From: Marinifilum caeruleilacunae
Lineage (GTDB): Bacteria; Bacteroidota; Bacteroidia; Bacteroidales; Marinifilaceae
NCBI RefSeq assembly: GCF_013141825.1
Contig: NZ_RZNH01000002.1
Span: 124,001-188,000 of the forward strand
Length of the DNA stretch: 64,000 nt
Direction: 5' to 3'
Every line of letters begins with the position of its first letter. The stretch's first letter is position 1. Under the pieces are notes generated by a model. The model had not been told where the DNA came from. It was given only the letters and a program-made list of their open reading frames with translations, and did not search any database. Positions 4,549 to 19,771 of the stretch are shown here, piece after piece. The translations under genes were made by a program, and so were the position numbers.

Positions 4549-6656
<2,108 letters not shown>

Positions 6657-6669
6657 GTCTATATAAACC

Positions 6670-6940
6670 TTAAACCTGAATTCACTTAAAATATTCATCA
6701 CAGAAAGTCATATTTGTTTAAGATTTGAATTAAAAATTTTGATAAAATACCGGGGTATTTTGAAGAATTTTTAATTCAAAGATTGAATGAAGATGGCTTA
6801 CATTATGGACTTCACTATTTTTTGCATAAATCGTTCCATATTTTTTTGAATTATCCCGATAGTACTGCAAAAATCTGAAACAATTTCTACTAAAAAATAG
6901 TTGAAGCTGTGTAAATATTTTTAAGTGAATTCAGGTTTTA
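6670..6940. mobile_element. MITE-like element with 24-25 bp terminal inverted repeats
   Basis: Left end 6673-6695 (AACCTGAATTCACTTAAAAT...) and right end 6915-6937 are near-perfect inverted repeats (one base indel). Both ends are flanked by TTA (6670-6672 and 6938-6940), as expected for a 3-bp target duplication. The inside has no reading frame and contains a long hairpin. It lies between the ABC-F stop codon and its terminator; removing it would put the terminator about 20 bases from the stop. This is the classic layout of a non-autonomous insertion. No transposase family can be assigned. Confidence 0.65.
6724..6780. repeat. Long hairpin inside the MITE-like element
   Basis: TTTGAATTAAAAATT (6724-6738) pairs perfectly with AATTTTTAATTCAAA (6766-6780). 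After a small internal loop a second stem AAAATAC/GTATTTT closes on a GC-rich loop. There is no T run after it, so it is not a typical terminator. Confidence 0.7.
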
Positions 6941-6945
6941 ATATT

Positions 6946-6978
6946 TCATCCCCCGGGCGTTCGCGCTTGGGGGATTTT
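6946..6978 (+). terminator. Strong terminator, probably of the ABC-F gene
   Basis: ATCCCCCGGGCG pairs with CGCTTGGGGGAT (two G-U pairs) around a TTCG tetraloop, followed by TTTTTT. This is the most GC-rich stem in the window. It now lies about 290 bases from the ABC-F stop because of the element inserted between them. Confidence 0.9.
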
Positions 6979-7022
6979 TTATACCATAAGTCTGGAATAT
7001 TAAATACAAGGATCATTAGTAG

Positions 7023-7370
7023 TACATTGATAATTGTACATTGATAATTGTACATTGATAATTGTACATTGATAATTGTACATTGATAATTGTACATTGA
7101 TAATTGCTCATTGATAATTGTTCATTGATAATTGTTCATTGATAATTGTACATTGATAATTGCTCATTGATAATTGCTCATTGATAATTGCTCATTGATA
7201 ATTGTTCATTGATAATTGTTCATTGATAATTGTTCATTGATAATTGCTCATTGATAATTGTTCATTGATAATTGTACATTGATAATTGCTCATTGATAAT
7301 TGCTCATTGATAATTGTTCATTGATAATTGTTCATTGATAATTGTTCATTGATAATTGCTCATTATTAAA
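7023..7370. repeat. Minisatellite: 24 tandem copies of a 14-bp unit
   Basis: Twenty-four complete 14-bp units follow each other with no gap from 7023 to 7358, plus a decaying 25th. The last 11 bases of each unit, ATTGATAATTG, are invariant; the first 3 are TAC, CTC or TTC. The first six units all carry TAC. Later the order TAC, CTC (2-3), TTC (3), CTC recurs, showing duplication of blocks of about 8 units. There is no reading frame through it. It ends just upstream of the deoB promoter. Confidence 0.95.
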
Positions 7371-7372
7371 TA

Positions 7373-7403
7373 TTGCTTATTAAGAATTGTTCTATTATCT
7401 TTG
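7373..7403 (+). promoter_or_regulatory. Predicted promoter of deoB
   Basis: TTG at 7373-7375 and TATCTTTG at 7396-7403, 20 bases apart, match the Bacteroidota -33/-7 pattern. The leader to the deoB ATG is about 53 bases. The -33 element lies right at the decayed end of the minisatellite. Confidence 0.7.
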
Positions 7404-7462
7404 CAGCACTACAAAAACAACCCATCATCTGTATTTTTCGAAATACATAAAAACACTGATTT

Positions 7463-8641
7463 ATGATTCAAAAAATTGAACGTGCTACCATCGTAGTATT
7501 AGATAGCGCAGGTGTTGGTTATTTACCAGATGCTGCTGAATTTGGTGATATGGGCTCAAACACCATGGGAAATATCGCAAAACATTGCGGTGGAATGAGC
7601 TTGCCAAACATGCAAAAGTTAGGTTTGGGAAATATCACTCCGATAGAGGGAGTTGAACCTACCGAAAATGCAAATGGTGCATTTGGAAAAGCTGCAGAAG
7701 CATCGAAAGGAAAAGATACAACCACAGGACACTGGGAAATTGCAGGTGTGAAACTGGCAAAAGCATTCCCAACTTATTCAAATGGATTCTCGGAAGAAAC
7801 CATCCGTTTGTTCGAAGAGAAAACAGGCCGAAAGGTAATGGCAAACAAGCCGGCATCGGGAACTGCCATTCTGGATGAATATGGCGATGAACAAATGAAA
7901 ACCGGCAATTGGATTGTGTATACATCGGCCGATCCGGTGTTTCAGATTGCAGCGCACGAAGAGGTAATTCCTTTAGAAGAACTTTACAAGGCTTGTGAAA
8001 TTGCCCTTGAAATTTGCTCTGAGCATGAACCTGTTGCTCGTGTAATTGCTCGTCCGTACCTGGGTAGCGGAAAAGGTAAGTTTACACGTACTTCCAATCG
8101 TCACGACTACTCGGTAACACCACCACAAGCAACGGTTTTAGACCGATTAAAAGAAAATGGTTTGGACGTTATCGGAATTGGAAAGACCAAGGATATTTTT
8201 GCCGGACAGGGAATAACCGAATCACGAGGAACCAACAAAGACAATGTAGATGGCATTGAAAAAACATTAGTTGCTCTGGAGGAAGATTCGAAAGGATTAA
8301 TCTTTACCAACCTGGTTGATTTCGACATGGTTTATGGTCACAGAAGAAATCCGGAAGGTTATAAAGCTGCTTTGGAAGAGTTTGACCAGTACCTGCCGCA
8401 AATTCAGGAAAAGCTAAAAGAGGATGAAATTCTGATTCTAACGGCTGATCATGGATGCGATCCTACTTACAAAGGAACAGACCACACAAGAGAATACATT
8501 CCTCTAATGGTTTATGGAAAAAACATCAAGCAGAATGTGAACCTGGGAACACGCACTACTTTTGCCGATATTGCCGCAACCATTGAAGAGTTGCTATTGG
8601 GCAATAAAGTGGAAGGTAGTTTTGCCAAAGATTTGTACTAA
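7463..8641 (+). CDS. deoB: Phosphopentomutase
   Basis: Interconverts (deoxy)ribose 1-phosphate and 5-phosphate in nucleoside salvage and catabolism, in the cytoplasm. The 392 residues match the usual family length (about 390-400). It belongs to the alkaline-phosphatase superfamily: the metal-binding Asp is in IVVLDSAGVGYLPDA, the phospho-accepting Thr in KGKDTTTGHWEIAG, and the second metal site in TADHGCDP and GTDHTREYIP. The cap domain lies between about 95 and 210. The gene stands alone between its promoter and a strong terminator, not in a deo operon. Identification is secure. Confidence 0.97.
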   Translation: MIQKIERATIVVLDSAGVGYLPDAAEFGDMGSNTMGNIAKHCGGMSLPNMQKLGLGNITPIEGVEPTENANGAFGKAAEASKGKDTTTGHWEIAGVKLAKAFPTYSNGFSEETIRLFEEKTGRKVMANKPASGTAILDEYGDEQMKTGNWIVYTSADPVFQIAAHEEVIPLEELYKACEIALEICSEHEPVARVIARPYLGSGKGKFTRTSNRHDYSVTPPQATVLDRLKENGLDVIGIGKTKDIFAGQGITESRGTNKDNVDGIEKTLVALEEDSKGLIFTNLVDFDMVYGHRRNPEGYKAALEEFDQYLPQIQEKLKEDEILILTADHGCDPTYKGTDHTREYIPLMVYGKNIKQNVNLGTRTTFADIAATIEELLLGNKVEGSFAKDLY

Positions 8642-9642: not shown

Positions 9643-12600
9643 ATGAACCACCTAAAACCCACCCTACTCTTTCTGTGTGTATTGTTGTGTGCATTTCAGC
9701 TTTCGGCACAACAAAGCAATATCCGTTTTAAACGAATAACCATTAACGATGGACTTTCATTAAGTTCTGTTTACTGTATCCACCAGGATTCGAAAGGATT
9801 TATGTGGTTCGGCACCGAAGATGGTTTAAACCGTTACGATGGAAAGAATTTTGTGATTTACAGGAGCGATCCTGAAAATTCAAATACCATATCCTACAAA
9901 TGGATTGAGCAAATATTTGAAGACAGCAAAGGAAAATTGTGGTTGGGTTCGAGAGGTGGTTTAAGCAGGTTCGATCCGGTTAATGAGCAATTTACTCAAT
10001 TCAGGGGAGCTGGACCTGGTAGCTCCTTATCAAACGACACCATTACTCATATCTTCGAAGATTCGGAAAACAGACTTTGGATAGGAACGCTAAAAGGAAT
10101 CAACTGTATTGATATTACAAGCCTGGCCAAGATCCAAATTCAAAATGCAAGACTCATTTCTTCCAGGGTAAATTGCATTCTTCAAATCAATCCAAAACAT
10201 ATTTTGTTTGGAACCGACAAGGGATTATTCTCCTATCATACTGAAACAAAAAGCATTAAAAAGGAAAATTACACAGGTGATCAGGAAAACAGAAGAGTGC
10301 TTTCACTGGCACAATCGTCCAATTCAATTGTGATTGGCACGAATAAGGGATTATTTGAGTGCAACAATCGTTTCGAATGTGACTCACTACCCGATTTGGA
10401 AAAACTTCAAATTGAAAATCTTTTATACGATAAGGATTCAACTTTATGGATTTCTACCAACAAAGCATTGTTGCACCGAAGTAAGAATTCTGATAAAATC
10501 AGATATTCAGTAAAATCATTTGAATCCTCAAACAGCCTATCCATTAATACCAGTAAACCGATTCTTCGCGATCAGAACAACAACATTTGGTTTGGCACAT
10601 TTGGTTCGGGTTTGTTCAGGTTTAATCCCAATGAAAAGAAAAAGAAGCATTACAAAAATAATTCGGCCGATGCTCAGAGTTTATCGGGCAATGCAATCAA
10701 TTGCATTTTCGAAGATCGCACTGGCGTGATATGGTTGGGTACCTTTGGTGCTGGAATTAGCATTTACGATCCACAATTGCACAAATTCGATTTGCTGAAA
10801 CACGATCCGCTCGACGAGAACAGTTTGCCTGCTAATTTCCTGTGGTCCATTTGCGAAGACAAAGATTCGAATGTATGGATAGGAACCAATAACCAGGGAG
10901 TATCAAAATACAATGTGAAACAGGATACTTTCATTAATTACGATTTTAGAGCGTCGAAAAAACTGCCACACAAAGCAATTCGTAAGGTATACGAAGACCG
11001 AAAAGGAATCATTTGGATTGGAACCGATGGAGATGGGTTGATACGCTTCAATCCTGAAACCAAATCAAGGAATCGCTACAGAAATAAAGCAAACAACAAT
11101 CGTTCATTAAGCAACAATTCGGTACGTGTAATTTTTGAGGACAGTGAAAATCTGCTATGGATTGGAACACAGAATGGCTTAAACCTATTCGATCCGGAAA
11201 CGGAAGAATTTACCCAGTTTAAACATTCGGAAAGTGATGCCAATAGCATTTCACACAATTTTGTTTATTCGGTGATTTTTGAAGATTCGAAAGGTCAGAT
11301 TTGGGTAGGAACCTATGGTGGCGGATTAAACGTTTACAACAAGCAAACAAAAGCATTTGCCAGATACACCTATTCAAGAAACTCGCAAAATTGCATTTCT
11401 GACAATGTGGTTTTCTCCATTTATGAAGAAAAAGACGGAATACTTTGGATTGGAACCAATAACAAACTGAACCGATTCAACCAAAACACACAGGAATTTG
11501 AACATTTTGGAACCGAACATGGTTTGCCAAACAATGTAATTTATGGTGTATTGAACGACAGCAAGAAAAACCTTTGGCTCAGCACCAACTCAGGCATTTG
11601 CAAATTCTCTCTAAGAAATTATTCCTGTAAAAATTTTGATGTCCATGATGGACTTCAAAGTAATGAGTTTAATGGAGGAGCATTCCATAAAGGAGAAAGT
11701 GGTCTATTGTATTTTGGTGGTGTTTATGGTTTAAATATTATCGATCCTGATAAAGAAATTAAAGAGGATGCTTTGTATGAAGCAGAAATTACAAAGCTTG
11801 AAGTTCATGGTCAACCTGTTCATGTATCAGCAGGAGAATCGAAAGGAAATTGGATTGCCTATGACAAGAATACAGATTCTTACAGTTTTTCCAAAAGCAT
11901 TGCATTTACCGATTCTATTGAATTGGATTATGAACACAGGTTTCTTTCTTTCGAGTTTTCGAGCGTGTCGAACTTCTCTCCCGATAAGGTAAATTATGCC
12001 TATCGTTTACAAGGCTTGGAAAAGAAGTGGGTATATTCTGAAAAACGAAATTTTGCATCCTACTCAAACCTTTCGCCAGGAAAATATACTTTTGAGGTAA
12101 TTGCCCAGAACCCTTATGGCAAATGGAGCGAAAAGCCAAGAGAGCTGCATATTGCAATTCATCCACCTTTTTACATGACCTGGTGGTTTATCCTGCTTGA
12201 AATATTTGTTGTTAGTGCTGTTTTCATATTTGTGTACAGGTATCTTTTAAACCTGAGAACCAACAAATTGCTGAGTGCACAAAATGAACAGATTACAATT
12301 GCCAATAAGAATTTAAAAGAATCGGAACAGAACCTGAAGGAGTTGGTGGCAACCAAAGATAAATTCTTTAGAATCATATCTCACGATTTAAAAAATCCGT
12401 TTACAAGCTTGTTATCAATCAGCGAAATGATTCATGAAAATTACCAGCTGATCGACGAAGATGAAAAGAAAGTGGGCATTCGAAAAGTTCATGAATCTGT
12501 GAAACACATTTTCAACCTTTTGGAGAATTTGCTCACCTGGTCGAGATCACAAACCGGGAAAATTGATTTTTCCCCTGTTGAATTCGATCTGTGTGAATTG

Positions 12601-13029
12601 ATTTCTGAAAGCCTTAGCCTCTATTCTGCTTCGGCCGAAAAGAAACAGATACAATTGACCAAATACTGTCCGGAAGAGATCATGGCCCTTGCTGATCGGA
12701 ACATGTGCAGCTCGGTATTGCGTAACCTTCTGAATAATGCCATTAAGTTCTCGCACAATTCCAGCGAAGTGGCAGTAAAAGTGATCCCTCATTCCAATTA
12801 TTGCGAAATACAGGTAATCGATCAGGGAATTGGAATCGATAAGGAAAATATCGACAAACTGTTTCGTATTGATTTGAAATACAAATCGTCGGGAACTGCC
12901 GGTGAAAAAGGAACCGGACTGGGCTTATTGCTCTGCAAAGAGTTTGTGGAAGCAAATGGTGGCAACATAGAAGTGAAAAGTGAACTGGGAAAAGGAAGTA
13001 CTTTTATATTCACTCTCCCATCGGCTTAA
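9643..13029 (+). CDS. Double-propeller sensor histidine kinase (HTCS-like, no regulator domain)
   Basis: A 1128-residue periplasmic sensor kinase. Order: signal peptide (1-22, ending LSAQ), about 14 two-component-propeller repeats with the WIGT.GLNRF pattern (roughly 25-690, enough for two seven-bladed propellers), a Y_Y_Y domain (about 735-840), one membrane helix at about 846-867, coiled coil, HisKA with His near 914 in SHDLKNPF, and HATPase_c (RNLLNNAIKFS, DQGIGID, GTGLGLLLCKEF). Known hybrid two-component systems of Bacteroides that sense glycans have this sensor half but end in a receiver plus AraC domain. Here both are absent and no response regulator is nearby. The ligand is probably a sugar or oligosaccharide by analogy, unproven. 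Confidence 0.95.
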   Translation: MNHLKPTLLFLCVLLCAFQLSAQQSNIRFKRITINDGLSLSSVYCIHQDSKGFMWFGTEDGLNRYDGKNFVIYRSDPENSNTISYKWIEQIFEDSKGKLWLGSRGGLSRFDPVNEQFTQFRGAGPGSSLSNDTITHIFEDSENRLWIGTLKGINCIDITSLAKIQIQNARLISSRVNCILQINPKHILFGTDKGLFSYHTETKSIKKENYTGDQENRRVLSLAQSSNSIVIGTNKGLFECNNRFECDSLPDLEKLQIENLLYDKDSTLWISTNKALLHRSKNSDKIRYSVKSFESSNSLSINTSKPILRDQNNNIWFGTFGSGLFRFNPNEKKKKHYKNNSADAQSLSGNAINCIFEDRTGVIWLGTFGAGISIYDPQLHKFDLLKHDPLDENSLPANFLWSICEDKDSNVWIGTNNQGVSKYNVKQDTFINYDFRASKKLPHKAIRKVYEDRKGIIWIGTDGDGLIRFNPETKSRNRYRNKANNNRSLSNNSVRVIFEDSENLLWIGTQNGLNLFDPETEEFTQFKHSESDANSISHNFVYSVIFEDSKGQIWVGTYGGGLNVYNKQTKAFARYTYSRNSQNCISDNVVFSIYEEKDGILWIGTNNKLNRFNQNTQEFEHFGTEHGLPNNVIYGVLNDSKKNLWLSTNSGICKFSLRNYSCKNFDVHDGLQSNEFNGGAFHKGESGLLYFGGVYGLNIIDPDKEIKEDALYEAEITKLEVHGQPVHVSAGESKGNWIAYDKNTDSYSFSKSIAFTDSIELDYEHRFLSFEFSSVSNFSPDKVNYAYRLQGLEKKWVYSEKRNFASYSNLSPGKYTFEVIAQNPYGKWSEKPRELHIAIHPPFYMTWWFILLEIFVVSAVFIFVYRYLLNLRTNKLLSAQNEQITIANKNLKESEQNLKELVATKDKFFRIISHDLKNPFTSLLSISEMIHENYQLIDEDEKKVGIRKVHESVKHIFNLLENLLTWSRSQTGKIDFSPVEFDLCELISESLSLYSASAEKKQIQLTKYCPEEIMALADRNMCSSVLRNLLNNAIKFSHNSSEVAVKVIPHSNYCEIQVIDQGIGIDKENIDKLFRIDLKYKSSGTAGEKGTGLGLLLCKEFVEANGGNIEVKSELGKGSTFIFTLPSA

Positions 13030-14832: not shown

Positions 14833-15078
14833 ATTTCTTAATAATGGTTCGTTTTACTAGGATCAATTAAAATTAGTTATAAAATTCGAATCACTCGCTA
14901 TGATTGCAGTTCTTTCAAGGATTTAGGGATAATTTTTTGTTTTCAGAAAAAAAATGAAAAAAAATGCATTTTCTGATAGGGTATCAAAAGCTTCGCGCAT
15001 CATACTTATAGAAACCGGAAATCTAACGATCGTAATTCCATATTATCAATTAAAAGAAACAGATAAAAACATATTGCC

Positions 15079-16383
15079 ATGAGAACAAATTTTATATCAA
15101 AAATTACCATTCTGCTTTCGGCATTTATTTTACTTACATCCATGTCGGCTTCAGCAGGGGAATGGAAAAAGAAGAAAAAGAAAGAAAAGAATAAGGTTCA
15201 GCATGTAATTGATACCTTAAAGTATAATGTCTATAAAGGCAAGATACAAGACCAAGACTCTAAAGATCCTCTAATTTTTGCTACTGTTGCCGTTAAAGGT
15301 GTAAATGTTGCAACTGTATCGAATAACGAAGGTGAATTTATTTTAAAAATTGCCAAAGGTTTACCAGTTAGTAAAATTGAAGTAAGCCATGTTGGGTACA
15401 AAAACCTGGAGGTTGATATCAAATCATTGAAACCAAAGAAAAATGTATTGCAGCTACAAATGGCAGTTGTGCCGCTTGATCAGATTAATATTTATCCTTT
15501 AGATCCGAACGATTTGGTTCGTAGAATTTTGAAAAAGGTTGGTGAAAACTATTCGACTACACCAAACATGATGGAAGGATTCTACAGAGAAACCGTGAGA
15601 AAGAACAGAACCTATGTTGCCATCTCGGAAGCTGTTGTGAACATCCATAAATCGGGATACAAGCAAAGCAGATCTGACCAGGTTCAGATTTACAAAGGCA
15701 GAAAGAGCCAGGATGTGAAAAAAATGGATACCCTTCTGTTTAAATTGCAAGGTGGACCAACTACAGCTTTATTGCTTGATGTAATTAAAAATCCTTACAA
15801 CCTGCTTTCTGAGGACTTTAGCCAAAGTTATAATTTCACTTTGAAATCGATTACCAAAATTAATGAGAAGCTTCACTATGTGATTGAATTCAACCAAAAA
15901 GAAGATGTTGACATTCCATTGTACTATGGTTTATTATACGTTGAAACTCAAAATCTGGCATTAACAAGTGCCAAGTTCAGCTTGAACCTGGAGAATCCTG
16001 ATGAGGCAAGCAAACTGTTTATCAGAAGAAAACCATCGGGTGTTAAAGTGACTCCTACTTCGGCCGATTACATTGTGAACTATCATGAAACTGGTGGAAA
16101 GTGGTACTTTAACTATGCACGTGGAGAGATTAACTTTAAGTGTAACTGGAAGAAAAAATTATTCAACACCAATTATTCGGCAATGACAGAAATTGCAATA
16201 ACAGACAGAGATGATTCGGATGTTGTAAGATTTACTCGCAACGAAAAATTTAGATTGAACCAGGTAATGGTTGATGAAATTGGAAACTTTGCAGATAAGA
16301 ATTTCTGGGGAGCGCACAATACAATTGAACCTGATCAATCGATAGAGGCAGCAATTCGCAAACTAAAAAGAAAGGCTCGTTAA
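15079..16383 (+). CDS. Carboxypeptidase-like regulatory domain protein, envelope (paralog of 18188-19771)
   Basis: Exported protein of 434 residues: signal peptide (1-26, ending SASA), a very basic segment (EWKKKKKKEKNK), a carboxypeptidase-like regulatory beta domain (about 53-135: YKGKIQDQDSKDPLIFATV...NNEGEFILKI...VSHVGYKNLEV), then a long C-terminal domain of about 290 residues that I cannot assign with certainty. That C-terminal domain is clearly homologous to the one in the gene at 18188: both have FYRE, YKGRK/FKSRK, the pattern TxxxKLxGG or FRLKGG, and end in NFWGxxNxIxPDxSIxxA. There is no TonB plug or barrel. It sits just upstream of the sigma/anti-sigma pair. Confidence 0.88.
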   Translation: MRTNFISKITILLSAFILLTSMSASAGEWKKKKKKEKNKVQHVIDTLKYNVYKGKIQDQDSKDPLIFATVAVKGVNVATVSNNEGEFILKIAKGLPVSKIEVSHVGYKNLEVDIKSLKPKKNVLQLQMAVVPLDQINIYPLDPNDLVRRILKKVGENYSTTPNMMEGFYRETVRKNRTYVAISEAVVNIHKSGYKQSRSDQVQIYKGRKSQDVKKMDTLLFKLQGGPTTALLLDVIKNPYNLLSEDFSQSYNFTLKSITKINEKLHYVIEFNQKEDVDIPLYYGLLYVETQNLALTSAKFSLNLENPDEASKLFIRRKPSGVKVTPTSADYIVNYHETGGKWYFNYARGEINFKCNWKKKLFNTNYSAMTEIAITDRDDSDVVRFTRNEKFRLNQVMVDEIGNFADKNFWGAHNTIEPDQSIEAAIRKLKRKAR

Positions 16384-16426
16384 GAATTACAGTTAACCTA
16401 CTTATTTTAACGCTTTAAGATACAAC

Positions 16427-16489
16427 AATGGAAAGAATCATTCACTCTTTATTTGGGGAAACAAGGAGTAAACAGTGATTCTTTCCATT
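16427..16489. repeat. Perfect 14-bp hairpin upstream of the ECF sigma gene
   Basis: AATGGAAAGAATCA (16427-16440) and TGATTCTTTCCATT (16476-16489) are perfectly complementary around a 35-base loop, inside which ACTC and GAGT can pair. It starts 44 bases after the upstream stop codon and lacks a following T run, so it is either an unusual terminator or an RNA or DNA regulatory structure. Confidence 0.75.
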
Positions 16490-16612
16490 CGTTCCTTATA
16501 AAATGTTACAATTAACAGCTGTTTTTATTGAACATATCCTAAGGAAATACAGACTAAAAATCCTATATTAGAATAGAATTAAACTAATAGAAATAGGAAT
16601 ACGAAAACAAGA

Positions 16613-17167
16613 ATGTCGGAAGATACAAACACCATATTATTTAACATTCAAAAGGGTAATTTAAAAGAGTTTGAAAGATTATTTAAATTTTACTATCCAC
16701 TTCTTTGCCATTACGCAACAAAATTTGTGAAAGACCCGGATCAAGCCGAAGAAATCGTTCAAAATTTATTTTGTCAGATTTGGGAAGACAGGAAAAAATT
16801 AAAAATCCATACCTCTTTTAAGGCCTACCTTTACAAAGCAACCTATTTGAATAGCTTGCAGTTTTTACGAAAAAAAGGAATAAGAAACCAATACGAAGAT
16901 CATTTAAAAAAGACCAGAATTAACAGTTCATCCATGAATCACAGTTTGGAAGAAAAGGAAATTCAATCAATTATTCAAAATACACTATCAAATTTGCCGG
17001 AAAGATGCGGTAAAATATTTAAAATGAGTAGATTTGAAGGATTAAAATATCAAGAAATTGCAGATAAGCTTTCGATATCAGTGAAAACAGTAGAAGCCAA
17101 TATGGGTAAAGCTTTAAAAGCATTTCGGAAAAATTTAAAAGATTACGTAAGTATAATTGTGCTTTAA
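16613..17167 (+). CDS. ECF RNA polymerase sigma factor (FecI-like)
   Basis: Alternative sigma factor of the sigma-70 ECF class, 184 residues. Region 2 spans about 20-85 (FYYPLLCHYATKFVKDPDQAEEIVQNLFCQIWED, with the core-binding and -10 recognition helices). Region 4 spans about 120-175 (LPERCGKIFKMSRFEGLKYQEIADKLSISVKTVEANMGKAL), the -35 recognition helix-turn-helix. It is followed after 5 bases by a FecR anti-sigma factor, the usual cell-surface signalling pair of Bacteroidota, and then by an STN-domain protein. It probably activates that cluster and perhaps the 15079 paralog. Confidence 0.95.
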   Translation: MSEDTNTILFNIQKGNLKEFERLFKFYYPLLCHYATKFVKDPDQAEEIVQNLFCQIWEDRKKLKIHTSFKAYLYKATYLNSLQFLRKKGIRNQYEDHLKKTRINSSSMNHSLEEKEIQSIIQNTLSNLPERCGKIFKMSRFEGLKYQEIADKLSISVKTVEANMGKALKAFRKNLKDYVSIIVL

Positions 17168-17172
17168 ATAAA

Positions 17173-18180
17173 ATGAAGAACGAAACATCACATAACATTG
17201 AATGGGAGAGCATTTCGAAGTATTTGAGCGGAGAAATGAGTGAGGAAGAAAGAACAGCTTTTGAAAAGTTGATTGATTCGAACTCGGAATATGCACAAAT
17301 TGTTGCGGCATCGGAGAAAGATCTTGGCTTGGTTGAAGATGTGATTCAAATCAGGGAAAAATACAATTCGGATCATGCCTGGAATCAGGTACATTCAAGA
17401 ATTTCTAAGCCTGATAACAAAAACATGTCAATACTGGCAAATCAGAATTTTAAGAGAGTGCTTCAATTTGCGGCAATGATTGTTCTTGTAATCGGTTTGG
17501 GCCTGGTTTCAAATAAAGTGTACAAGGACTACCTTTCTCCATACAAAACATTTATTTCCAAGGCCGAGGATAGCAGCAAAACCATTGTTTTGGCAGATGG
17601 ATCAACGGTTACCCTAAATGGAGAGGCAAAACTGGTTTATCCTAAAAAATTCAATTCTGCAACAAGAAATGTAAGCCTGGAAGGTGAAGCATTTTTTGAT
17701 ATTGCCAAGAATCCTGAAAAAGCATTTATCATTACAGTAAAAGGTGCCGAAATTAAGGTTTTGGGAACATCATTTAATGTAATTGCCCAAGAGGATAAAG
17801 TCGAGGTTTTGGTAGAGTCTGGAAAGGTTCAGTTTTCAGAACTTGAGAACAATGAAGAGTCTGTAATTCTTGAAAAAGGTGATTTTGCTGTTTTAAAAGA
17901 AAACTCCCTGAACAAAACCCTGATGAACGATGACAATTATTTATCGTGGAAAACGCAGAAAATGGTATTCAGAGGCATGCCGTTAAAAGATGTTGCAAAA
18001 GTGATTGAGAGAACCTATAGAGTAAAAGTTGAATTTGAAAGCAATGATATTGCCAATGAAAAAATCAATACCACTTTTATTCAGGATCCTCTTAATGTTG
18101 TTTTGACTAACATCTGTATGTCGAAAAGTTTAACATACGAAAAGAAAGGCCAAACCATTACCATTAAAAAAGGAATTTAA
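17173..18180 (+). CDS. FecR family anti-sigma factor
   Basis: Inner-membrane anti-sigma factor, 335 residues. The cytoplasmic N-terminus (1-90) would hold the sigma factor; a membrane helix lies at about 96-114 (FAAMIVLVIGLGLVSN). The periplasmic FecR domain (about 130-225) shows ADGSTVTLNGEAKLVYPKKF, VSLEGEAFFDIAKNPEKAF and VLGTSFNVIA, and a C-terminal DUF4974-like domain (about 260-330) follows with MPLKDVAKVIERTYRVKVEF. It lies 5 bases after the sigma gene and 7 bases before the STN gene, so the three are almost certainly co-transcribed. In known systems the STN domain of an outer-membrane receptor signals to FecR; here the only STN partner nearby is the next gene. Confidence 0.95.
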   Translation: MKNETSHNIEWESISKYLSGEMSEEERTAFEKLIDSNSEYAQIVAASEKDLGLVEDVIQIREKYNSDHAWNQVHSRISKPDNKNMSILANQNFKRVLQFAAMIVLVIGLGLVSNKVYKDYLSPYKTFISKAEDSSKTIVLADGSTVTLNGEAKLVYPKKFNSATRNVSLEGEAFFDIAKNPEKAFIITVKGAEIKVLGTSFNVIAQEDKVEVLVESGKVQFSELENNEESVILEKGDFAVLKENSLNKTLMNDDNYLSWKTQKMVFRGMPLKDVAKVIERTYRVKVEFESNDIANEKINTTFIQDPLNVVLTNICMSKSLTYEKKGQTITIKKGI

Positions 18181-18187
18181 GCCATTT

Positions 18188-19771
18188 ATGAATAAGATTA
18201 AAACATATAACCTGTGCTTGATAAAAAGATTATCCATTCTTTTTATACTTGCTTTCGTGTGTTTTAATTCAGGCTTAGCCCAAACCAATGTTTTAGATAA
18301 AAAAATACAACTGGTCTTAAACGAAACCAGTATCGACAATGCTTTGGATAGCATTGAACAAAAGGCCGATTGTTATTTCACCTACAGTTCTGACCTATTC
18401 ATAAATCGCAAAAGTGTTAATCTTACGGCCAATAACGAAAAATTATCCAGCGTATTACGGAAGCTCATTCCCGACAAGGATCTTAGTTTTCATGTAACGA
18501 ATAAGCATATTGTTATCGTTCCGGTGAAAGAACAGGTTGCTAAAGCTGGCATAACGAAGGAAATTATCCCTTATATCTCCTACAGGAAAATTTCGGGATT
18601 GGTGAAAGATCATAACTCGAAAAAAGCCTTACCTTATGCAAGTATTGGCATTCGAGGCAAACATGTTGGTACCATTTCCAACCAGGATGGAGAATTTTCT
18701 TTAAGTTTATCTTCAGAAAACCTAAACGATACACTGGTTTTTTCTTATGTTGGCTATCAAAATGCCGAAATTAAAGTTGCCGATCTTAACAAAAACCATT
18801 TAGATATTTCCTTAAAAGAAGATTTTATTTCGCTTCAGGAAGTGATTATCAGAAACAATGATCCTTTGGCAATTTTGAATGCTGCGGTAAATAAATTTCA
18901 TATTAATTACCCTCAAAATCCAACCAACCTTACTTCCTTCTACAGAGAATCGGTACTGAAAAATAACAAGTACATGATTTATATGGAATCGGTACTGGAT
19001 ATCTATAAACACTCCTACTCGAACCGTACTGCACTGGAAAGAGTAAAAGTATTTAAAAGCAGAAAAATATATGATGTTTCAAGATTAGACACCATTTCAT
19101 TTCGACTTAAAGGCGGAATTAATGGCTGCTTGAAATTAGACATCGTCAAGAACCTTCCTGAGTTTCTTAATGAGGAGTTTACTCACCTTTATCAGTATCG
19201 TTTGGAAGATATTAGCACCTATGATAACCGATCGGTGTACATTATCGGGTTTAAACCCAAACCAAACCTAAGCGATCCCCTATTGGAAGGACGCGTTTTT
19301 GTAGAAACCAATAGCCTTGCCATTATACGAGCTGAATTTGGCTATAACAAAATGCGATTGAGCGAATTAAGAAATCGATTTATTGTGAAAGGAAGTGCAA
19401 AAACCAAGGCAAGACCCACTTTGGTTGATTACGTGGTGAGCTATCGAAACATCGATGGAAAATACTATCTAAACCATGCCTTGGGCAATCTTAAATTTAA
19501 GGTGAAGAACAAGAAAAAATTATTCTCCAGCATTTTTTCTACCTCTTTCGAAATGGCCACAACCGATTTGAAAACCGAAGATGTTTTAAAATTTAAATAC
19601 AAGGAGACGATTCATCCAACTACCATATTCTCCAATTACAAAACAACTTACGACCCTAATTTCTGGGGGAAGAGTAACTTTATAAAACCGGAAGAGAGCA
19701 TACAGGATGCATTAAAAAGAATCAATACCAGTATGCAGCAAGTTGCGCTGCGTAATTCCGATTCGAATTAG
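18188..19771 (+). CDS. STN plus carboxypeptidase-like regulatory domain protein without a barrel
   Basis: Exported protein of 527 residues. Order: signal peptide (about 1-31, ending GLAQ), STN domain (about 38-112: IQLVLNETSIDNALDSI ... KHIVIVPV), carboxypeptidase-like regulatory domain (about 133-215), and a C-terminal domain of about 300 residues homologous to that of the protein at 15079. The first two modules are exactly those that precede the plug and barrel in SusC/FecA-type receptors, but no plug or beta-barrel follows. It is co-transcribed with the sigma and anti-sigma genes and is therefore the likely input component. Whether the C-terminal domain is anchored in the outer membrane or is soluble is unknown. 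Confidence 0.9.
   Translation: MNKIKTYNLCLIKRLSILFILAFVCFNSGLAQTNVLDKKIQLVLNETSIDNALDSIEQKADCYFTYSSDLFINRKSVNLTANNEKLSSVLRKLIPDKDLSFHVTNKHIVIVPVKEQVAKAGITKEIIPYISYRKISGLVKDHNSKKALPYASIGIRGKHVGTISNQDGEFSLSLSSENLNDTLVFSYVGYQNAEIKVADLNKNHLDISLKEDFISLQEVIIRNNDPLAILNAAVNKFHINYPQNPTNLTSFYRESVLKNNKYMIYMESVLDIYKHSYSNRTALERVKVFKSRKIYDVSRLDTISFRLKGGINGCLKLDIVKNLPEFLNEEFTHLYQYRLEDISTYDNRSVYIIGFKPKPNLSDPLLEGRVFVETNSLAIIRAEFGYNKMRLSELRNRFIVKGSAKTKARPTLVDYVVSYRNIDGKYYLNHALGNLKFKVKNKKKLFSSIFSTSFEMATTDLKTEDVLKFKYKETIHPTTIFSNYKTTYDPNFWGKSNFIKPEESIQDALKRINTSMQQVALRNSDSN

Follow-up and report, generated by a model that had tools for sequence, protein, structure and literature searches.

A sigma/FecR unit conserved in Bacteroidales with a barrel-less STN protein and an STN-less paralog as its likely sigma target

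TonB receptors are the known setting of FecR/STN signalling, which serves as their switch. In a 64,000-nucleotide stretch of the Marinifilum caeruleilacunae genome (contig NZ_RZNH01000002.1, positions 124,001 to 188,000; hereafter the window), we found a four-gene unit, A-S-F-T, in which the STN protein (T) carries neither plug nor barrel and appears to be soluble. T follows an extracytoplasmic function (ECF) sigma factor (S) and a FecR protein (F), and the first gene, A, encodes an STN-less paralog of T that is preceded by a conserved promoter-like element and is likely to be a direct target of the sigma factor. The parts and their logic are already known; the combination, a soluble STN protein with a putative LolA/RseB-like sensor and an STN-less paralog as the conserved target of sigma, did not turn up in searches of open-licence papers.

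The A-S-F-T unit

An earlier note on this DNA had placed the sigma, FecR and STN genes at 16613, 17173 and 18188, set 5 and 7 bases apart, with a paralog just upstream (15079) that shares the C-terminal domain of the STN protein but lacks STN. Both observations hold, and the unit has the following parts:

15079–16383, forward strand: A, with signal peptide, CarbopepD_reg_2 (residues 53–134) and predicted LolA/RseB-like C-domain; no STN
15484–16380, forward strand: C-domain of A, residues 136–434, modelled separately
16613–17167, forward strand: S, ECF sigma factor, TIGR02985 (Sig70_bacteroi1)
17173–18180, forward strand: F, FecR anti-sigma/regulator, one transmembrane segment (about 95–112), FecR and STN-like FecR_C domains
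18188–19771, forward strand: T, with signal peptide, STN, CarbopepD_reg_2 and predicted LolA/RseB-like C-domain; no plug or barrel
18296–18544, forward strand: STN signalling domain of T, residues 37–119, from Pfam and model alignment
18590–18850, forward strand: CarbopepD_reg_2 domain of T, residues 135–221, with the fold of the SusC N-terminal extension
18851–19768, forward strand: C-domain of T, residues 222–527, from the alignment with the A C-domain and from the model

Pfam and NCBIfam searches recovered CarbopepD_reg_2 in A, Sigma70 and TIGR02985 in S, FecR and FecR_C in F, and STN (just below its curated cut-off) and CarbopepD_reg_2 in T. In the same hidden Markov model searches the C-terminal ~300 residues of A and of T matched no Pfam family, yet the two C-domains can be aligned with each other at 34% identity. 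FecR was present in all 27 F proteins scanned and FecR_C in 25 of them. Three genes upstream of A, at window positions 9643–13029, lies a propeller-type sensor protein (Reg_prop, Y_Y_Y, histidine kinase).

T has no barrel and no recurrent receptor neighbour

The lack of a TonB plug or barrel, which the earlier note had claimed for the window protein, extends to its relatives: no Plug or TonB-barrel family matched any of the 34 T proteins scanned, in which CarbopepD_reg_2 was found in every case and Pfam STN in 25 (E <= 0.01). A hydrophobic N-terminus was present in 45 of 45 T proteins and a hydrophobic helix after residue 90 in none, with a lipobox-like match in two and a terminal aromatic residue in three. 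The simplest reading of these sequences is that T is a soluble periplasmic protein.

One alternative is that T is a split transducer, docking in trans through its CarbopepD_reg domain on a separate barrel (a TonB receptor, DUF5686 or the β-barrel assembly machinery, BAM) that would be the true sensor, with the half-barrel of T merely structural. We looked for such a neighbour among 45 open reading frames of at least 450 residues lying no more than 6 kb from 38 units, leaving out 14 units from close relatives; some fetched stretches were shorter than 6 kb. No recurrent barrel gene emerged next to the unit: Plug occurred in two of the 45, and no family occurred in more than four. One of the two Plug genes is of receptor type, lies close to the G057 unit and has an S-F pair of its own. 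Matches to the BAM component BamP (NCBIfam NF053692) were weak, with two of the 34 T proteins matching (best E 9e-7) and three of ten proteins reaching 17–24 bits against a cut-off of 230 bits; none of nine other proteins matched at E <= 0.01. Although such a barrel could be encoded elsewhere, on this evidence we judge the split transducer rather unlikely. Within T, mean identity to the window protein is 43% for the C-domain, 43% for the CarbopepD domain and 31% for STN, and as the first two are equally conserved, conservation cannot choose between a half-barrel sensor and a split transducer.

T is also the odd one out in its genome, as the partners of the other FecR units differ. Among the 11 FecR matches in the window's genome, six are followed by proteins of 1166–1250 residues, which we take as SusC-like on the grounds of size, gene order and a match with the N-terminal portion of T; three are followed by proteins of 831–860 residues (the one scanned has Plug), one by a 618-residue STN protein and one by T. 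The 618-residue protein has GVQVAGAVN-type repeats and an aromatic end, like outer-membrane proteins, and was therefore not counted as barrel-less. At its locus (L064:7714-11259, G000:C149) an S-F pair precedes this STN and CarbopepD protein, and an STN-less TonB receptor lies upstream (5225-7585); the two are possibly a split receptor/transducer pair. In many same-family relatives (L009:15745-17392, L046:3566-5179 and equivalents), T is followed at a distance of ~6 kb by a second sigma/FecR pair, with about 36–41% identity to S and 30–35% to F, and no STN protein was seen beside this pair.

A conserved promoter-like element precedes A

The earlier note's idea of a second effector sharing the C-domain receives strong support from a promoter-like element conserved upstream of A. 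This region and the gap between A and S contain:

14977–15004, forward strand: promoter-like element TAGGGTA-N14-CATCATA, candidate -35 at 14977–14983 and candidate -10 at 14998–15004, 74 nucleotides (nt) before the ATG of A
15017–15039, forward strand: apparent imperfect dyad around a CGATCG core, within the putative 5' leader of A, from direct reading and 11 aligned same-family leaders
16427–16489, forward strand: hairpin between A and S with a 16-bp stem and a 31-nt loop, a candidate attenuator

When 11 same-family upstream regions of A were aligned, the element stood out as an island within otherwise poorly alignable DNA, and it is present in more distant lineages too, with the general form TAGGGTA-N14-YATCWTA. 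Within the window, 14977–15004 is the only match at two or fewer mismatches. Among the 26 units that the protein search yielded, the region upstream of A gave a best match with no mismatch in 21, one in two, two in two and three in one, although most of these regions had helped to define the motif or its degenerate positions. Upstream of S (26 regions), F (26) and T (24), the best match had at least three mismatches in all cases, and no A region had a match with fewer than two mismatches on its opposite strand. An independent check on five units gave 0, 0, 1, 2 and 3 mismatches upstream of A. A gene-blind search of 393 genomes of the order is a stronger check. The pattern matched exactly at 68 sites and its reversed form at 52 (a by-eye count), so it is not specific by itself. 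Of these exact sites, 58 were looked at: 33 lie upstream of A (counting both tandem G547 sites), including in families not used for motif definition, one lies upstream of a hydrolase-like lipoprotein, and the other 24 are within genes, ahead of other genes or ahead of nothing recognised. These data suggest that A is likely a direct sigma target, and since S has no such element, the sensor genes S, F and T may depend on read-through from A.

The hairpin in the A-S gap was not listed by a terminator scan, which covered loops of 3–8 nt only. In 25 of the 52 units described below, the longest stem in the A-S gap exceeded the longest of 20 simple shuffles; the stem sequences vary by lineage, and the shortest gaps have no stem. 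Just past the A promoter, the dyad arms appear to covary in same-family relatives (GGAA/TTCC versus GAAAA/TTTTC); in this alignment the L047 leader was shortened, its listed open reading frame start lying upstream.

Sequence matches point to a second candidate target. In the window's genome, exact and one-mismatch sites precede genes for a BamB-like propeller protein and for a lipoprotein that matches Hydrolase_4 weakly, at 21.1 bits where the cut-off is 27. In G001–G005, G012, G013 and G024, such a site is followed after 21–24 nt by a lipoprotein whose start is similar, and G026 has a similar lipoprotein behind a one-mismatch site. In G005, an 80% complete genome in which neither A nor T turned up, the site carries one mismatch; in G001 the propeller gene does not adjoin the lipoprotein. 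Judged by sequence, the regulon probably extends to the hydrolase-like lipoprotein in close relatives and to the propeller gene in the window's genome.

Other sites were seen away from the unit. In three f170 genomes, six exact sites lie 23–59 nt before other genes, some for secreted proteins (loci L254, L255, L256, L264, L266 and L267), with no A-S-F-T in the fetched stretches; here a related sigma factor may share the -35 and -10 elements. Five G038 sites (L121 and others) join TAGGGTA to TTGTCATA as the second half, which suggests a sister sigma specificity.

The unit is old and conserved

A synteny survey bore out the gene order. A single script, with close relatives included, gathered 52 A-S-F units (26 through the protein search and 26 through the promoter pattern) under 16 family labels (f1, f8, f11, f15, f25, f26, f27, f137, f149, f163, f169, f172, f173, f177, f188 and f190). 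T is next in line in 45. Four of the other seven stop where the contig or the fetched stretch ends (L243, L258, L259 and L260), and three (L058, L060 and L244) have another gene in the place of T. Among the matches listed (58 relatives), full-length T is present in 17 genomes, 16 of which have the order A-S-F-T; in G015, T lies on a different contig from A-S-F. Named relatives belong to Marinifilum and Labilibaculum (G001–G004 were viewed as loci L009–L012), and the same order occurs in other families of the order. A survey of 395 genomes of the class, scoring three candidates per genome, gave 16 with a match at E <= 1e-30, of which seven have T (all also with A), six have A alone (five in one family) and three are more distant and unclassed. 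In a tree of a chosen set of 75 C-domain sequences, the 39 A proteins make up one exact clade (support 1.0), outside which the 35 T proteins fall with the outgroup. As judged from these sequences, the A/T split is clean and old, in a tree without direction, and the unit is old and conserved in Bacteroidales.

Two variant arrangements were also seen. Three f15 loci (L057:10381-13176, L247 and L257) have a tandem pair of A copies ahead of S, and in G307 (L196 and L197) A and T are on separate contigs with no S or F beside either in the fetched stretch.

The shared C-domain is a candidate half-barrel

Rather than a barrel or plug, two low-confidence models, one each for A and T, placed the C-domain nearest the LolA/RseB/MucB superfamily, with TM-scores of 0.20–0.38. 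The T model scored 7.7 with RseB and 7.4 with MucB, and the A model 6.3 and 6.2, the RseB score there being near background. The RseB model of Pfam/NCBIfam matched neither A nor T of the window nor any of the 34 T proteins, and the same proteins gave no Pfam match to LolA (PF16584 and PF17131), for which hhalign probabilities were 4.7 and 54.6. The C-domain profile aligned with the region that follows CarbopepD_reg in DUF5686 (probabilities 81 and 80). Going by these low-confidence models, the shared C-domain is likely a LolA/RseB-type half-barrel.

It is conceivable that the C-domain is instead a non-lipid binding module of a nutrient or glycan regulator, with A an envelope protein merely sharing ancestry with T. 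Six of the genome's 11 FecR units resemble the SusCD type in size and gene order, the G047 unit has a glycoside hydrolase family 2 gene nearby, and transporters of the major facilitator superfamily type occur in two of the 45 large neighbours. In the available part of PMC12893687, genes with A- and T-fitting names fall together in P. merdae RNA-seq on N-acetylneuraminic acid (Neu5Ac): Table 2 gives log2 -2.23 for NQ542_RS07340 (carboxypeptidase-like regulatory domain-containing protein) and -2.00 for NQ542_RS07355 (STN and carboxypeptidase regulatory-like domain-containing protein). The two genes are three locus-tag steps apart, as A-S-F-T predicts, and the intervening tags are absent from that table. 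The latter product name indicates that T-type architectures are already annotated, without a function. However, apart from the two transporters, the 25 commonest of 184 neighbour families include no recurring family for sugar handling, and the closest modelled folds belong to families of lipid or lipoprotein binders. We consider a nutrient or glycan regulator distinctly improbable.

A model for sigma control by T

The earlier note had described a sigma-controlled system with a barrel-less input protein. Its barrel-less and sigma/FecR character is supported; the input role of T is read from domains and synteny. The F profile matched the structures of PupR (6ovk_R, E 1e-11) and an anti-sigma factor (4m0n, E 2e-50), and by model the STN of T aligned with PupA, with FecA and, within the PupR complex, with a chain that we infer to be the PupB signalling domain, so that a contact between T and F can reasonably be inferred. 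In the available text of PMC11637429, an STN signalling domain is reported to attach to the anti-sigma factor while signal is absent and to protect it against proteolysis, and the domain is also released by cleavage; in that of PMC7400510, MucA is shielded by MucB and freed by lipid binding. Joining these two precedents yields a cap model.

In this model T, as a soluble periplasmic protein, would replace the TonB receptor as the input of the ECF sigma/FecR unit. By analogy with solved relatives, its free STN would dock on the STN-like C-domain of FecR, and its LolA/RseB/MucB-type half-barrel would be the sensor. At rest T would cap FecR and guard it against proteolysis; a ligand in the half-barrel, most probably an acyl chain of a mislocalised lipoprotein, lipopolysaccharide (LPS) or phospholipid, would loosen the cap, so that FecR is cut and sigma freed. 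Freed sigma would then transcribe A from the putative promoter at 14977–15004, the step with strong sequence evidence, and A, with the same half-barrel and no STN, might bind or carry the ligand and close the loop. Taken as a whole, a soluble STN and half-barrel sensor acting on FecR, with A as the sigma output, is the account towards which we modestly lean. More tentatively, and at somewhat less than an even chance, the unit could be an RseB-like envelope stress sensor of Bacteroidales, in which a sigma/FecR device of nutrient uptake is converted, by an STN-fused LolA-type sensor of lipid or lipoprotein, to monitoring outer-membrane lipid or lipoprotein traffic, and the LolA-like carrier A is the feedback output.

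T could also work as an activator, with ligand-bound T presenting its STN to FecR to turn sigma on, in which case loss of T would silence the operon. This agrees with the classical model of signal-induced interaction, which is general knowledge and is given as the current model in the available part of PMC11637429, and with the report, in that of PMC12155086, of a FecR-like regulator as both inhibitor and positive regulator. The binding without signal described in PMC11637429 argues against it, and we think an activator role unlikely.

At least 16 family labels, then, share the usual parts of the TonB-receptor switch in a conserved form that has an apparently soluble sensor and a constant pairing of promoter and target. 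Should the predicted fold hold, a LolA-type module has been coupled to anti-sigma control by a second route, and the unit would offer an entry point for Bacteroidota into lipoprotein and LPS stress sensing.

Comparison with known systems

Like the Dma anti-sigma factors, the unit would control a Bacteroidota ECF factor by a device not based on SusC. Dma, as described in the available part of its source, is a single protein with an anti-sigma domain, transmembrane segment, tether and barrel, whereas here FecR is paired with a soluble STN protein; no barrel is fused to F, which has 335 residues and only FecR and FecR_C domains. BamP of the Bacteroidota BAM complex (PMC12611786) resembles T through a weak match that spans the CarbopepD region and some of the sequence beyond, and one chain of the complex has the same CarbopepD fold as the T model, but BamP has a long linker and a three-helix C-domain, according to the available text. 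DUF5686 proteins (CarbopepD_reg, periplasmic part and barrel) likewise have CarbopepD_reg followed by a region that aligns with the C-domain, but A and T end before any barrel; the DUF5686 model PF18939 matched neither A nor T of the window and had two matches elsewhere in the genome.

In sigmaE/AlgU-RseA/MucA-RseB/MucB, as here if the low-confidence models are correct, a soluble periplasmic protein of LolA-like fold is paired with an anti-sigma factor. Here, however, the anti-sigma factor is of the FecR type, contact would run through an added STN domain, and the proteins have an extra CarbopepD_reg domain and no RseB Pfam match. With FecI-FecR-FecA (and PupI-PupR-PupB and FoxI-FoxR-FoxA) the unit shares an ECF sigma factor, a single-transmembrane FecR protein with FecR and STN-like C-domains, and an STN-domain partner encoded next door. 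It differs in that this partner has no plug or barrel and appears soluble, and in that the conserved putative target is not a receptor but a soluble paralog of the sensor.
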